A DNA stretch of 64,000 bases from the NCBI GenBank assembly GCA_003134045.1, contig PLAH01000059.1:1-64000 (forward strand). Reading direction: 5' to 3'. A program made the position numbers and the translations under genes. The notes under the pieces are model-generated. The model did not search any database. It worked only from the letters and a program-made list of their open reading frames with translations, and had not been told where the DNA came from. Of the stretch, positions 2 through 59,682 are shown one piece after another. Position 1 is the first letter of the stretch; every line of letters begins with the position of its first letter. Source of the stretch: Gammaproteobacteria bacterium (GTDB taxonomy: Bacteria > Pseudomonadota > Gammaproteobacteria > Steroidobacterales > Steroidobacteraceae).

Positions 2-1702
2 CCGAGCGAGTCGTTGCGGTCGGTTGTGTCGACCGAGTCGAGCGCGTCGGCCGTGCCGTTGCTCGGGCCGGTGCAACGGCGGCTGTGCTGGCACTACCAC
101 ACGAGTTTCGTGCGGGCGGGCGCCACGTTGAGCCCCGCCGCGAAAGCGCGCGTCGGCGCGATCAACGAACGTCTGGCCGGCCTGTTTGCGAGCTTCGGCC
201 AGAATCTCCTGGCCGACGAAGCCGACTACACCTTGTTTCTCAGCAACCGCGCCGACCTGGCCGGATTGCCCGACGCACAATGCGCCGCCGCTGCCGCGAC
301 TGCCGCGGCGGCGGGACGCCCGGGCGAGTGGGCGATTCTCAACACGCGCTCGGCCATGGATCCCTTCCTGACCTACGCGCAGCGCCGCGATCTGCGCGAA
401 CAAGTTTGGCGCACGTATTACAACCGCGGCAACAACGGCGGGGCGCACGACAACAAGCAGATCGTCACGGAGATTCTCGCGCTGCGCGGCGAGCGGGCGC
501 TGCTGCTCGGCTACCCGACGCATGCTCACTGGCGGCTCGCCGACAGCATGGCGGGCAATCCCGACAACGCCATGGCGCTGCTGATGCGCGTGTGGCCGGC
601 GGCGGTCGCGCGCGTCCATGAAGAAGTGGCGGATATGCAGGCCTTGGCGGACGCCCCCATAGAAGCATGGGATTATCGATTCTATGCGGAGAAGGTGCGT
701 CAGGAAAAATACGATCTCGACATGAACGAGGTCAAGCCCTACCTGCAGCTCGAAAAGCTGCGCGAGGGAATGTTCTGGGCCGCGGGCCAGCTGTACGGTT
801 TCCGTTTCTCGCAGGTGACGGACCTGCCGCTGCCCAGCCCCGACGTGAGGATATGGGAGGCCAAGACCCCGACCGGCCTTCATGTGGGCCTTTGGTATTT
901 CGATCCCTATGCGCGCGCGGGAAAGAACTCGGGCGCCTGGATGAGCGAATATAGGGATCAACGAAAACTGACGCCGCCGAAGTCGCCCATAGTCTCGAAC
1001 AATACCAATTTCCTCAAGAGCGACAGCGCCGATCCGGTTCTCATCAGCTGGGACGAGGCGGTGACTCTGTTTCACGAGTTCGGTCACGCGCTGCACGGCT
1101 TGAACTCGGACGTCGAGTATCCGTCGCTGTCCGGCACGCGCGTGGTCCGCGATTTCGTGGAGTTCCCGTCGCAGCTGAATGAGAATTGGCTCAGTGTCCC
1201 GGAGCTGCTGTCGCGATTCGCGCTGCATTACCAAACCGGCGAGCCCATGCCGGCGGCGCTTGCGGCCAAGATCAAATCCGCGCGGACGTTCAATCAGGGA
1301 TTCGCCACGGTCGAATACCTGGCGGCGGCGCTGGTCGATATGAAGCTGCACCTGGCGACCGAACCGGTGCGCGATCCGCAGGCCTTCGAGCGCGAGACAC
1401 TCGAGGCCCTGGGAATGCCCGGCCAAGTGGTCATGCGGCATCGGACGCCGCAGTTCGCGCATATTTTCGCGAGCGATGCGTATTCCGCGGGGTATTACAG
1501 CTATCTTTGGGCCGAGGTTCTCGACCATGACGCGTTCGAGGCGTTCGTGCAGGCCGGCGATCCGTTCGACAGAGCCATTGCAAAGCGCTTGCACGATGAC
1601 ATCATGTGCGTCGGCAACAGCGTCGACCCGGCGCAGGCCTACCGCAATTTTCGCGGCCGAGACCCGCAAATCGACGCCCTGTTACGAGCACGCGGTTTTT
1701 AA
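2..1702 (+). CDS. dcp: Peptidyl-dipeptidase Dcp-like M3 metallopeptidase (5' end cut by window)
   Basis: M3-family zinc oligopeptidase that cleaves dipeptides or short peptides. The reading frame is open to the window edge, so the TTG at 14 is probably not the start and the gene is partial; 562 residues are visible against roughly 680-720 for Dcp. Counting from 14, the zinc site HEFGH lies at residues 354-358, and the third-ligand stretch RDFVEFPSQ with the downstream N-E-N-W follows about 25 residues later, as in Dcp and oligopeptidase A. The NNTNFLK and ISWDEAVTLF segments before the zinc site favour Dcp over PrlC. No signal peptide can be judged because the N-terminus is missing. A repeat element begins 13 bases after the stop. 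Family is sure; Dcp versus another M3 subfamily is likely. Confidence 0.9.
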   Translation, partial: PSESLRSVVSTESSASAVPLLGPVQRRLCWHYHTSFVRAGATLSPAAKARVGAINERLAGLFASFGQNLLADEADYTLFLSNRADLAGLPDAQCAAAAATAAAAGRPGEWAILNTRSAMDPFLTYAQRRDLREQVWRTYYNRGNNGGAHDNKQIVTEILALRGERALLLGYPTHAHWRLADSMAGNPDNAMALLMRVWPAAVARVHEEVADMQALADAPIEAWDYRFYAEKVRQEKYDLDMNEVKPYLQLEKLREGMFWAAGQLYGFRFSQVTDLPLPSPDVRIWEAKTPTGLHVGLWYFDPYARAGKNSGAWMSEYRDQRKLTPPKSPIVSNNTNFLKSDSADPVLISWDEAVTLFHEFGHALHGLNSDVEYPSLSGTRVVRDFVEFPSQLNENWLSVPELLSRFALHYQTGEPMPAALAAKIKSARTFNQGFATVEYLAAALVDMKLHLATEPVRDPQAFERETLEALGMPGQVVMRHRTPQFAHIFASDAYSAGYYSYLWAEVLDHDAFEAFVQAGDPFDRAIAKRLHDDIMCVGNSVDPAQAYRNFRGRDPQIDALLRARGF

Positions 1703-1714
1703 TCATTCCGCACA

Positions 1715-1829
1715 TGCTCGCGCAGCGAGCAGCTAAAGGCCGGGGTCGCGGCGACCCCGTAAATTCGGCGCGCAGGCGCCTAGATAAATCGGGGTCGCCG
1801 CGACCCCGTAGATTCGGCGCGCAAGCGCC
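1715..1829 (+). repeat. Structured hairpin element, copy A (tandem double copy)
   Basis: Several short perfect hairpins follow one another. P1: TGCTCG (1715-1720) pairs with CGAGCA (1726-1731) around CGCAG. P2: CGGGGTCG (1741-1748) pairs with CGACCCCG (1752-1759). P3: GGCGC (1767-1771) pairs with GCGCC (1776-1780). P2 and P3 are then repeated (1790-1797 with 1801-1808, and 1816-1820 with 1825-1829). The 7-base linker between P2 and P3 is TAAATTC or TAGATTC. The element fills the gap between the peptidase gene and the zinc-finger gene, ending 17 bases before that gene's start codon and 6 bases before its GGAG. The same architecture recurs at 29981, 52743 and 59178. Function unknown: a REP-like mobile palindrome or a 5'-leader RNA are the options. 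Confidence 0.85.
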
Positions 1830-1846: not shown

Positions 1847-2089
1847 ATGCCGGCGATGGTTCAAGACGATTCCAAGCACAACCTGATTCAGCCGAATGCG
1901 CTGCATCAATACTCGGTGACACCGGACGACCTGCCCCTGTCATGTCCGATGCCCGGCATGTATCTGTGGAATTCCCACCCGCGGGTGTATCTGGCCATCG
2001 AGGCGGCCGGATGGGCCAAGTGCGCTTATTGCGGCGCTGAATACACGCTGGTGCGCACGCCGCACGAAGTGATCCAAGCGGGGCAGTAA
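1847..2089 (+). CDS. zf-CHCC zinc-finger domain protein
   Basis: Small 80-residue protein with one Cys-His-Cys-Cys zinc-binding pattern: a Cys in LSCPMPG, a His in NSHPRVYL, then CAYC about 14 residues later. This is the zf-CHCC fold shared with the NDUFS6/NUMM subunit of respiratory complex I; in proteobacteria such proteins are usually stand-alone and uncharacterised. The ATG at 1847 has GGAG at 1836-1839. The only upstream feature is the doubled hairpin element, so its leader would contain that structure if transcription starts within or before it. It converges with the DUF6165 gene with 5 bases between the stops. Confidence 0.75.
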   Translation: MPAMVQDDSKHNLIQPNALHQYSVTPDDLPLSCPMPGMYLWNSHPRVYLAIEAAGWAKCAYCGAEYTLVRTPHEVIQAGQ

Positions 2090-29980: not shown

Positions 29981-30045
29981 TGCCCGTGCAGCGGGCAACT
30001 ATCAACCGGGGTCGCTTCGACCCCGTAAATTCGGCGCGAAGCGCC
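29981..30045 (+). repeat. Structured hairpin element, copy B (between tkt and gap)
   Basis: Three hairpins: P1 TGCCCG (29981-29986) with CGGGCA (29992-29997) around TGCAG; P2 CGGGGTCG (30007-30014) with CGACCCCG (30018-30025) around CTT; P3 GGCGC (30033-30037) with GCGCC (30041-30045) around GAA. The P2-P3 linker is TAAATTC. Compared with copy A, P1 has swapped a T-A for a C-G pair. P3 ends one base before the GAGGAG ribosome binding site of gap (30047-30052). Confidence 0.85.
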
Positions 30046-30056
30046 TGAGGAGTACG

Positions 30057-31070
30057 ATGGCAATCAAAGTGGGCATCAATGGTTATGGACGCATCGGCCG
30101 CAACGTGCTGCGAGCGCTGTACGAGGGCAAGCACAAAGATGAGATCAAAATCGTCGCAATCAACGATCTCGGCGATGCGAATACGAATGCTCATTTGACC
30201 CGGTTCGATACGGTGCACGGCCGGTTCCACGGCGATGTGCACGTCGAGGGCGATTCGATGGTGGTGAACGGCGATCGCATCCGCGTGGTCGCGCAGCGCG
30301 ATCCGGCCAAGCTGCCGTGGGGCGAACTCGGCGTGGATTTCGTGCTGGAGTCGACCGGCCTGTTCACGAGCAAGGCGAAGGCCTCCGCCCATCTCACCGC
30401 CGGTGCCAAGAAAGTGGTCATCTCCGCGCCCGGCGGCGATGACGTGGATGCCACCATCGTGTACGGTGTGAACCACAAAATCCTGAAGTCCGGCTTCACG
30501 GTCATTTCGAATGCGTCGTGCACCACGAATTGCCTGGCGCCGCTCGCCAAGGTGCTGCACGACGAGATCGGCATTCTGGCCGGCGTCATGAACACCATTC
30601 ATTCGTACACGAACGATCAGGTGTTGACCGATGTCTATCACTCGGATCTGCGGCGCGCGCGCTCGGCGACCATGTCGATGATACCGACGAAGACCGGCGC
30701 GGCCGCCGCGGTCGGTCTGGTGATGCCCGAGTTGAAGGGCAAGCTCGACGGATTCTCGGTGCGCGTTCCGACCATCAACGTCTCGTTCTTGGACTTGACC
30801 TTCAACGCCGCGCGCAAGACCACGGTGGAAGAAATCAATGCGGTGGTCAAGAAGGCCGCCGGCGGCGAGCTGAAGGGCATTCTTGCATACAACGACGCGC
30901 CGCTGGTGTCGGTGGACTTCAATCACGACCCGGCGTCGTCGACGTACGATGCGACGCTCACCAAGGTGATTCAGGGCAGCCTGGTGAAGGTGTGCGCGTG
31001 GTATGACAACGAGTGGGGCTTTTCCAATCGAATGCTCGACACCACCTTGGCGTGGTCGAAGGCTGACTAA
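30057..31070 (+). CDS. gap: Glyceraldehyde-3-phosphate dehydrogenase, type I
   Basis: NAD-dependent glycolytic enzyme. The Rossmann loop [12 protein letters not shown] is at residues 6-17, and the catalytic Cys155 lies in [17 protein letters not shown] (34-40) carries the acidic residue that favours NAD. 337 residues, standard. A strong GAGGAG lies 4 bases before the ATG and directly after the hairpin element. First gene of a gap-pgk-pyk run. Confidence 0.96.
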
Positions 31071-52735: not shown

Positions 52736-52742
52736 TAGAGGG

Positions 52743-52803
52743 CGGCGTCGCATCGACGCCGTTAATTCGGCGCGCAGCGCCTGAGACAGTGGCGCGAAGC
52801 GCC
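52743..52803 (+). repeat. Structured hairpin element, copy C (before ibaG)
   Basis: P2: CGGCGTCG (52743-52750) with CGACGCCG (52754-52761). Compared with copies A and B one G-C pair has become C-G, a compensatory change. Linker TTAATTC. P3: GGCGC (52769-52773) with GCGCC (52777-52781). A second P3 follows: GGCGC (52791-52795) with GCGCC (52799-52803) around GAA. P1 is absent or too diverged. The last stem ends two bases before the GGGAAG ribosome binding site of ibaG. Confidence 0.85.
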
Positions 52804-52813
52804 TGGGAAGCAT

Positions 52814-54311
<1,498 letters not shown>

Positions 54312-58541: not shown

Positions 58542-59159
58542 GTGGCACGTCGCTCGGTGATGACCTTGTTTTCCGCACCGACTGACCCGTGGAGTCATCG
58601 GACGCGGCTGGTCCTCGCCGAGAAGGGAATTACGGTCGAGTTGGTGAACGTCGATCCCCTCAAGCTGCCGGAGGACCTGCTCGATCTGAACCCCTACCAC
58701 AGCGTGCCGACGTTGGTGGACCGGGACCTGGTGCTGTACGACTCGCGCGTCATCATCGAGTACCTGGACGAACGCTTCCCCCATCCGCCGTTGATGCCCA
58801 TCGACCCCGTGACCCGGGCGCAGTTTCGGGTGGCGCTCTATCGCGTCGAACGGGATTGGTATGCGCTGGCGAGCGATATCGAGCAGGGGGCGTCGAGCAA
58901 GACCGCGGCGCACAGCCGCAAGGTGCTGGGCGAGGCCATCTGCGCCAGCGCGGATGTGTTCAAGGCGAAGCCGTTTTTCCTGAGCGACGAATTTTCGCTG
59001 GTCGATGCCAGCATCGCCCCGATACTCTGGCGCCTGCCGTCCTACGGCATAGAATTGCCCGCTCAGGCGCAGCCGATCGTGAAGTACATGAACTCCATTT
59101 TCTCCCGCTCCACTTTTCGTTCGTGTTTGTCCGAGGCTGAACGGGGCATGCGCCATTGA
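58542..59159 (+). CDS. sspA: Stringent starvation protein A
   Basis: 205-residue glutathione S-transferase-like protein that binds RNA polymerase and promotes stress-phase transcription in gammaproteobacteria. The thioredoxin-like half is seen in MTLFSAPTDPWSHRTRLVLAEKGITVELVNVDP with the missing catalytic Cys/Ser typical of SspA, and HSVPTLVDRDLVLYDSRVIIEYLDE. Start GTG at 58542, with AGGAG upstream. Conserved order petABC-sspA-sspB. Confidence 0.93.
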   Translation: MARRSVMTLFSAPTDPWSHRTRLVLAEKGITVELVNVDPLKLPEDLLDLNPYHSVPTLVDRDLVLYDSRVIIEYLDERFPHPPLMPIDPVTRAQFRVALYRVERDWYALASDIEQGASSKTAAHSRKVLGEAICASADVFKAKPFFLSDEFSLVDASIAPILWRLPSYGIELPAQAQPIVKYMNSIFSRSTFRSCLSEAERGMRH

Positions 59160-59177
59160 AGCCGCGCCGACTTTCCA

Positions 59178-59218
59178 GGCGCTTCGCGCCAACTTTCAAC
59201 GGGGCCGAGGCGGCCCCG
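59178..59218 (-). repeat. Structured hairpin element, copy D, inverted between sspA and sspB
   Basis: Read on the minus strand: P2 CGGGGCCG with CGGCCCCG (59200-59218) around CCT, then a 9-base linker, then P3 GGCGC with GCGCC (59178-59190) around GAA. P2 differs from copies A and B by a T-A to C-G pair swap, again compensatory. It sits between the sspA stop and the sspB start, but in opposite orientation to both genes. P1 is not seen. Confidence 0.75.
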
Positions 59219-59277
59219 TCCGATAAATATGGGATGAGCGGACGTTATTTGTTTCGACGTTCGCAGGAGCGTCACCC

Positions 59278-59682
59278 GTGAAGCCGCGTCGTCCCTATCT
59301 ACTGCGCGCCCTGCACGAGTGGATCACGGACAGCGGCGAGACGCCGCATATCGTGGTCGATGCCGCGGCGGAGAATGTCACCGTGCCGCGGCAGTACGTC
59401 AAGGATGGGAAAATCGTCCTGAACGTCAGCTTTTCGGCGACGCAGATGCTGAAACTGGGAAACGATTTCGTGAGTTTCGAGGCCCGCTTCGGCGGCGTCG
59501 GCTTTGCGGTGCTCGTTCCGGTGCGCGCGATTCTCGGCATCTACGCCCGCGAGACGGGCCAGGGCATGATTTTTCCGGAAGGCGATGCCGATCCCGATCC
59601 CACCGATGCGCCGCCCGCGGCTCCCGCCGGCGGGGGCGCGCGGACCGCGTCGAAGCGGCCCAAACTGCAAGTAGTCAAATAG
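59278..59682 (+). CDS. sspB: ClpXP protease specificity-enhancing factor
   Basis: 134 residues. Substrate-binding domain with RPYLLRALHEWITDSGETPHIVVDA, then NVSFSATQMLKLGNDFVSFEARFGG, and a flexible tail ending KRPKLQVVK, the type of tail SspB uses to tether to ClpX. Delivers ssrA-tagged proteins to ClpXP. GTG start at 59278. Converges with yraN. Confidence 0.93.
   Translation: MKPRRPYLLRALHEWITDSGETPHIVVDAAAENVTVPRQYVKDGKIVLNVSFSATQMLKLGNDFVSFEARFGGVGFAVLVPVRAILGIYARETGQGMIFPEGDADPDPTDAPPAAPAGGGARTASKRPKLQVVK

Follow-up and report, generated by a model that had tools for sequence, protein, structure and literature searches.

What kind of element places a run of GC-rich hairpins directly in front of start codons, and how did it come to stand there? 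The initial annotation of the stretch of 64,000 nucleotides analysed here (the window, which is contig C39 of a MAG that has 197 contigs and 5.5 Mb, with 96.8% completeness and 6.3% contamination) offered two answers, a mobile palindrome resembling the REPs or an undescribed 5′ leader that controls translation. We favour the former for the origin of the element, though in a form that has neither a constant GTAG tag nor a RAYT, and we leave room for the latter as a retained function, but not as a dedicated leader. The element is probably a dispersed, RAYT-less REP-like repeat that is transcribed and kept as an intercistronic hairpin for mRNA stability or processing; in this reading, the mechanism of mobility and the function in RNA are what we infer.

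The hairpin unit and its copies in the window

The unit consists of an optional hairpin with a GNA loop (P1), a long GC-rich hairpin (P2), a linker, a short hairpin with a GNA or GNRA loop (P3) and the sequence TGRRAA. Four copies had been annotated, at 1715, 29981, 52743 and, inverted, at 59178, each with three hairpins and a constant linker of 7 bases between P2 and P3. All four were found, and P2 and P3 can be read at every one of them (Table 1), but P1 stands only at loci A and B and is absent from C and D, and the linker, which is 7 nt long in A, B and C, measures 9 nt in D (TTGAAAGTT); across the wider family it ranges from about 7 to 11 nt, with a consensus near TTGAAAGTT. The count of four also falls short, as locus A is made up of two tandem copies in the order P1-P2-P3-P2-P3 (1715-1829) and P3 is duplicated at C. 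As annotated, the last stem ends just before a Shine-Dalgarno sequence (SD) in three places, A, B and C, while D lies antisense between sspA and sspB.

A covariance model of the P2-linker-P3 core (R1, built from 19 copies) finds five full units in the window, at 1738-1787, 1787-1836, 30004-30052 and 52740-52788 on the forward strand and at 59221-59171 on the reverse strand, with scores of 53-66 bits, the best full-length match elsewhere in the window reaching 11.5 bits. The junction sequence CGACCCCGTAAATTCGGCGC, which is conserved, has four matches in the window at up to 3 mismatches, compared with 0.02 expected from dinucleotide shuffles. Chance palindromes are ruled out by these pattern shuffles and by the scores of the covariance model. 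P1 is an optional module: hairpins of its type lie upstream of 70 of 174 copies, against 7 in shuffled flanks.

Table 1. Copies of the repeat in the window, with the neighbouring genes and the insert at copy D
Feature	Position	Strand	Evidence
Copy A, optional hairpin P1 (TGCTCG CGCAG CGAGCA)	1715..1731	+	read directly
Copy A1: P2 1741-1759, linker, P3 1767-1780	1741..1780	+	R1 64.2 bits at 1738-1787
Copy A2, second tandem unit: P2 1790-1808, linker, P3 1816-1829	1790..1829	+	R1 53.5 bits
zf-CHCC gene, ATG at 1847, after copy A2 and SD TGGAG	1847-2089		Pfam zf-CHCC
Copy B, optional hairpin P1 (TGCCCG TGCAG CGGGCA)	29981..29997	+	read directly
Copy B: P2 30007-30025, linker 30026-30032, P3 30033-30045	30007..30045	+	R1 65.4 bits
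gap, after copy B and SD GAGGAG 30047-30052	ATG at 30057		GAPDH family match
Copy C: P2 52743-52761, linker, P3 52769-52781	52743..52781	+	R1 64.8 bits
Copy C, duplicated P3	52791..52803	+	sequence
ibaG (BolA-like), after duplicated P3 and SD GGGAAG 52805-52810	ATG at 52814		BolA family match
Copy D, inverted: P2 59218-59200, 9-nt linker, P3 59190-59178	59178..59218	-	R1 66.1 bits
109-bp insert carrying copy D between sspA and sspB	59170..59278		orthologous junction in G018, G008, G003, G010
Left copy of 13-bp near-perfect direct repeat flanking insert, TGAAGCCGCGCCG	59157..59169	+	sequence; single in relatives
Right copy of direct repeat, TGAAGCCGCGTCG, 1 mismatch, now sspB start	59279..59291	+	sequence; single in relatives
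sspB	59278-59682		SspB family match

Stem covariation and structural variants

The hairpins are real and homologous. In the alignment of 81 copies from which a broader covariance model (R2) was built, 98.1% of paired cells hold standard pairs and 9 of the 13 stem pairs show double changes, with 72 cells of double change compared with 18.7 in shuffles and 3-8 when the partners were slid. The compensatory changes that had been noticed between the window copies hold up, P2 reading CGGCG/CGCCG in copy C and CGGGGC/GCCCCG in copy D, but by our count they fall on the fourth pair in C instead of the third and on the sixth pair in D instead of the fifth. P3 stems are GGCGC/GCGCC (73), TGCGC/GCGCA (51), TGGGC/GCCCA (9), GGGGC/GCCCC (5) and others, closed by a loop that is mostly GAA, GCA or GTA or has four bases such as GCAA, GTAA or GTGA. 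The architecture stays constant while the stem sequences drift genus by genus, and no unpaired sequence is conserved except a loose linker. Among the rpoB orthologue copies alone, covariation does not rise above shuffles. In predicted RNA folds, the hairpins P2 and P3 stay apart at D, dnaJ and carB and largely so at B; in A and C, pairing between the tandem units is possible as well.

Local variants accompany this common plan. Upstream of atpD (L158:9869-10024) there are two tandem copies with a different P3 stem (GGCCGAAGGCC), one of them with a compensated P2 (GGGGTTGCAGCAACCCC), which form a local subfamily. Two sister species, G013 and G017, have in common a subfamily in which the P2 loop region is longer (GGCGCTTAGCAC or similar; e.g. 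L255, L259, L266, L281). Upstream of parE (L157:17283-17413) and adjoining the rbfA/infB junction (L160:19718 onwards), the element leads into a longer array of further GC-rich palindromes, so that other palindrome families may coexist in the host genome.

Distribution among relatives

The covariance search carried through the host genome and its relatives recovered the four annotated loci, the fifth copy at 1787-1836, at least 45 copies in the host (R1, E<=0.01) and further copies in the same family. Genome-wide counts are lower bounds, with 22-150 candidates scored per genome and 150 in the host. Copies at E<=1e-4 occur in 13 of the 23 genomes of the host genus (R1), several congeners having no detectable ones, and at 1e-6 R1 had no match outside the host genus in a class sample of 274 genomes. 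Like the host, G000, the congeners G021, G013 and G010 are rich in the element, and G005, G006, G012, G015 and G019 are free of it. In the gammaproteobacterial family to which the host belongs, R2 matched 24 of 120 genomes, and in an order sample of 196 genomes every R2 match lies within that family. Loci read in family genomes contain clear elements at rpoB and fusA (g3), gloA (g10), carB, rplO and rplR (g2), atpA, dnaJ, rplF and rpsM (g254) and tsf (g4); the element is carried by congeners and by at least three other genera. The figure of 9 genera in 25 is an upper reading because some low-scoring family-wide matches are false, namely those in tRNA regions (L213, L218) and within a gene (L219).

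An exact-pattern scan of GTDB genomes gave two true matches, both Gammaproteobacteria MAGs of the same genus (palsa_1193 and GL140_3_metabinner_193); the matches in Holophagaceae, Aggregatilineales and Actinoplanes are due to chance and lack the hairpins. Rfam 15 has no gathering-threshold match over the element in the window or at 14 other loci, the best sub-threshold score being 9.2 bits. As far as these genome samples reach, the repeat is confined to one gammaproteobacterial family, an uncultured group, none having been found beyond it, and we describe it from its sequences as a new composite REP-like repeat family of that group.

Gain by insertion and retention of an old copy

All four loci of the window are lineage-specific gains whose sites are empty in most or all congeners. 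The ibaG site (copy C) is occupied only in the host, G000, among the congeners read, and the parE site is empty in G018 and G014. The gap site (copy B) is occupied in G000, G010 and G014 and empty in most congeners; on a concatenated Gap+MurA+RpoB tree the occupied genomes are scattered, and the sisters G018 (of G000) and G020 (of G010) are empty. At copy D, four congeners (G018, G008, G003, G010) have overlapping sspA and sspB genes (...GCGCCATTGAAGCCGCGCCG...), and the start of sspB is duplicated in the host because the 109-bp insert is flanked by the two direct repeats of Table 1. This single case looks like an insertion with target duplication. No flanking duplication is evident at A, B and C, where the nearest relatives are too diverged to resolve one. 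The element has no visible terminal inverted repeats, and neither excision nor a mobile intermediate was seen. Downstream gene sets differ between sister species. Judged by these comparisons, the element is mobile on an evolutionary timescale.

One copy, judged by its orthologues, is old, retained and common to two genera. It lies between rplL and rpoB in G000, G018, G020, G010, G021, G008 and G016 and in G024 and G342 of another genus, with P3-like remnants at the same site in G003, G007 and G011; in these nine full copies the linker varies, but none of the five P3 pairs does.

Both the host (L108, C182) and its sister G018 (L109, C39) have another gap gene, at 82% identity to the one in the window.

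Relation to known repeat systems

GTAG REPs and BIMEs are short extragenic palindromes that form clustered, lineage-specific families with stem variation; they lie mostly between unidirectional or convergent ORFs, hug the 3′ end of the upstream ORF and sometimes supply a neighbour's TAG stop (Di Nocera et al. 2013, PMC3733652). The present element resembles them as a short extragenic palindrome in many copies (at least 45 in the host), mostly intergenic, with clustered units and lineage-specific stem variation. It differs in that two or three unlike hairpins follow in fixed order, where REPs have one palindrome or inverted dimers, and in that it is shifted towards the downstream start. The tandem units at A, C and many other loci run head-to-tail, and there are no inverted dimers of the kind that mark REPINs and BIMEs. 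At the position of the tag, GTAG stands in 25 of 124 scoreable copies, GTTG in 51 and GTTA in 23. A RAYT gene (Y1_Tnp, PF01797) is absent from all 23 genomes of the genus, compared with 5 of 14 genomes among the positive controls, and we therefore reject a classical RAYT/REP system; with neither a constant GTAG tag nor a RAYT, the element is not a classical REP.

CGTC REPs, which also have no dedicated transposase, have 8-9 bp stems that nearly always begin with AT residues, loops of 4-5 nt and mostly CCA tails (PMC3733652). Like them, the element is a dispersed palindrome with no dedicated transposase, but compared with their description its P2 starts with a C-G pair, its P2 and P3 loops are mostly 3 nt long and it has no CCA tail. 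The lack of PF01797, of a GTAG tag, of inverted dimers and of a match to the described CGTC class makes the element REP-like in behaviour but places it outside the described REP classes. The TAACTGA repeats of marine Beggiatoaceae, whose mechanism of spread is unknown (PMC4679880), are likewise gammaproteobacterial and intergenic and lie just upstream of starts, including those of ribosomal protein genes; they are heptamer direct repeats, whereas the element is a covarying multi-hairpin unit. Finally, REP or intercistronic stem-loops of the malEFG type protect operon segments, a function that has been tested (PMC5927463). They share with the element stable hairpins between the cistrons of one operon and serve as the model for the function proposed here, though our hairpins abut the next RBS and their function is putative.

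Gene context and placement

Genes downstream of the element include fusA, rpsJ, rplK, rplJ, rplC, rplN, rplF, rplO, rplR, rpsM, tsf, rbfA, aspS, rpoB, nusG, secE, atpA, atpD, dnaJ, gap, ndk, ahcY, fabI, carB and parE; the element has thus come to lie many times beside essential genes for the ribosome, RNA polymerase, ATP synthase and sugar metabolism. Of the 45 host copies, 13 lie on two contigs that carry the rpl-rpoB and S10 operons and make up 0.32% of the genome (p about 3e-22, a value that overstates the concentration because copies within one operon are not independent).

We placed 174 copies (37 of the host, 99 of the genus, 38 of the family) with a simple gene finder. Overlap with a CDS by more than about 8 nt is rare (3/37, 8/99 and 8/38, respectively). 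In unidirectional gaps, 99 copies are in sense and 19 in antisense (p=3e-14), a strand bias that could stem from replication orientation; 22 further copies lie between convergent genes and 13 between divergent ones. In sense gaps, 45 of 90 copies have P3 within 20 nt of the start that follows, compared with 33 expected from uniform placement in the free gap (P=0.0007), or 25 against 17.6 when each downstream gene is counted once (P=0.004); there is no excess of copies at the upstream stop. An SD-like motif lies between P3 and the start in 29/37, and P3 often abuts the stop codon of a convergent or antisense neighbour, which ends within -1 to +3 nt of it. Against a random scatter of decaying palindromes or a family restricted to the window stand the homologues elsewhere, the covariation above both shuffled and slid controls and the non-random positions and orientations.

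Selection on DNA or on the transcript

Covariation alone cannot tell DNA hairpins from RNA hairpins, but under selection on the transcript, G.U mismatches on the element strand should survive better than A.C mismatches. In sense copies there are 30 G.U and 9 A.C (p=0.001; 26:8 without orthologous repeats), whereas all remaining copies have 12 of each. The contrast between sense and other copies is borderline and rests on few events (Fisher p=0.05), so that the asymmetry favours selection at the RNA level on sense copies, short of proof.

These observations bear on the closest competitor of our reading, that the element is a purely selfish or passive REP-like DNA palindrome, which would propagate through hairpins of single-stranded DNA and be tolerated where it does least harm, in intergenic gaps, after stops and before ribosome-binding sites. 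Stem covariation suits such DNA hairpins too, copies are gained and lost, and REPs share both the placement between unidirectional or convergent genes and the supply of TAG stops (PMC3733652), with which the convergent and antisense neighbours that so often end at P3 are consistent. It accounts poorly for the 99:19 sense bias, the shift to the downstream start and not to the upstream stop, the strong concentration in essential, highly expressed operons, the excess of G.U over A.C in sense copies only and the retention of the rpoB copy across genera, and we consider it possible but rather unlikely.

Less probable still, and in our view a poor fit, is a dedicated cis-regulatory leader RNA of the ribosomal-protein type or one that binds a regulator, which would control a regulon of genes for translation and energy and would have spread by duplication. 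The position of P3 next to the RBS with its GNA or GNRA loop, the SD-like sequence behind it, the enrichment of ribosomal and RNA polymerase genes and the deep rpoB copy would all suit a leader, and repeats just upstream of starts are known from other gammaproteobacteria, such as TAACTGA in Beggiatoaceae (PMC4679880). Yet loci are gained and lost freely, which argues against a dedicated regulon leader: sister species do not have the same gene sets, most congeners have empty sites and several have no detectable copies. Some copies are antisense or between convergent genes, and only the loose linker is conserved unpaired, whereas a binding site would need conserved sequence. Intrinsic terminators or attenuators, which stable GC-rich hairpins in intergenic gaps might suggest, are highly improbable, as neither P2 nor P3 is followed by a T-run on the sense strand, at locus B only P1, read on the opposite strand, resembles a terminator, and most copies lie inside core operons such as rplL-rpoB, where termination would harm.

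A REP-like repeat probably kept between cistrons

Thus, we favour a REP-like origin on account of the dispersed copies, the lineage-specific insertions with empty sites, the duplication at D and the intergenic distribution, and we leave room for a retained RNA function given the sense orientation, the shift to starts, the wobble bias confined to sense copies and the concentration in translation operons. The element would have spread by insertion into intergenic gaps, moved by an agent other than a resident RAYT/Y1 transposase, and its copies would persist mainly in those gaps between two cistrons where they are transcribed in sense; there P3 ends at the Shine-Dalgarno sequence or start codon or a little short of it, or directly adjoins the stop of a convergent gene. 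Once a copy has been inserted, selection on the transcript appears to keep the stems. The most likely function would be that of an intercistronic hairpin which blocks or positions mRNA decay or processing, the downstream cistron acquiring a structured 5′ end while its RBS presumably stays free.

A more far-reaching version, which we put forward only tentatively, is that of a mobile family acting in RNA: a RAYT-independent repeat that would install a structured intercistronic leader, at once a decay barrier and an open RBS, before core genes of translation, RNA polymerase and ATP synthase, its stems being under selection in the transcript. If this were true, a selfish repeat would rewire the expression of essential operons across a bacterial family. 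The usual account of REPs invokes a resident RAYT transposase and regards them as clutter at 3′ ends, and here is a family-wide repeat without RAYT (23 genomes). The element thereby provides a natural case in which to test whether selfish palindromes are co-opted for the processing of operon mRNA, and it raises the question of what moves REPs that have no transposase, one to which Di Nocera et al. gave no answer for the CGTC class.

Two further arrangements were seen at a few loci. At carB (L209) and dnaJ (L215/L220/L221) of other genera, the start codon ATG and the P3 stem overlap at the 3′ base of the stem (GCGCATGAAAA), and hairpin and start have no separate Shine-Dalgarno sequence between them. 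At L224, the element (1501-1556, reverse strand) directly abuts the 3′ end of a gene for 6S RNA (Rfam match 1310-1500, forward strand; joint span 1310-1556), and L210, which has the same downstream sequence, is probably arranged in the same way.
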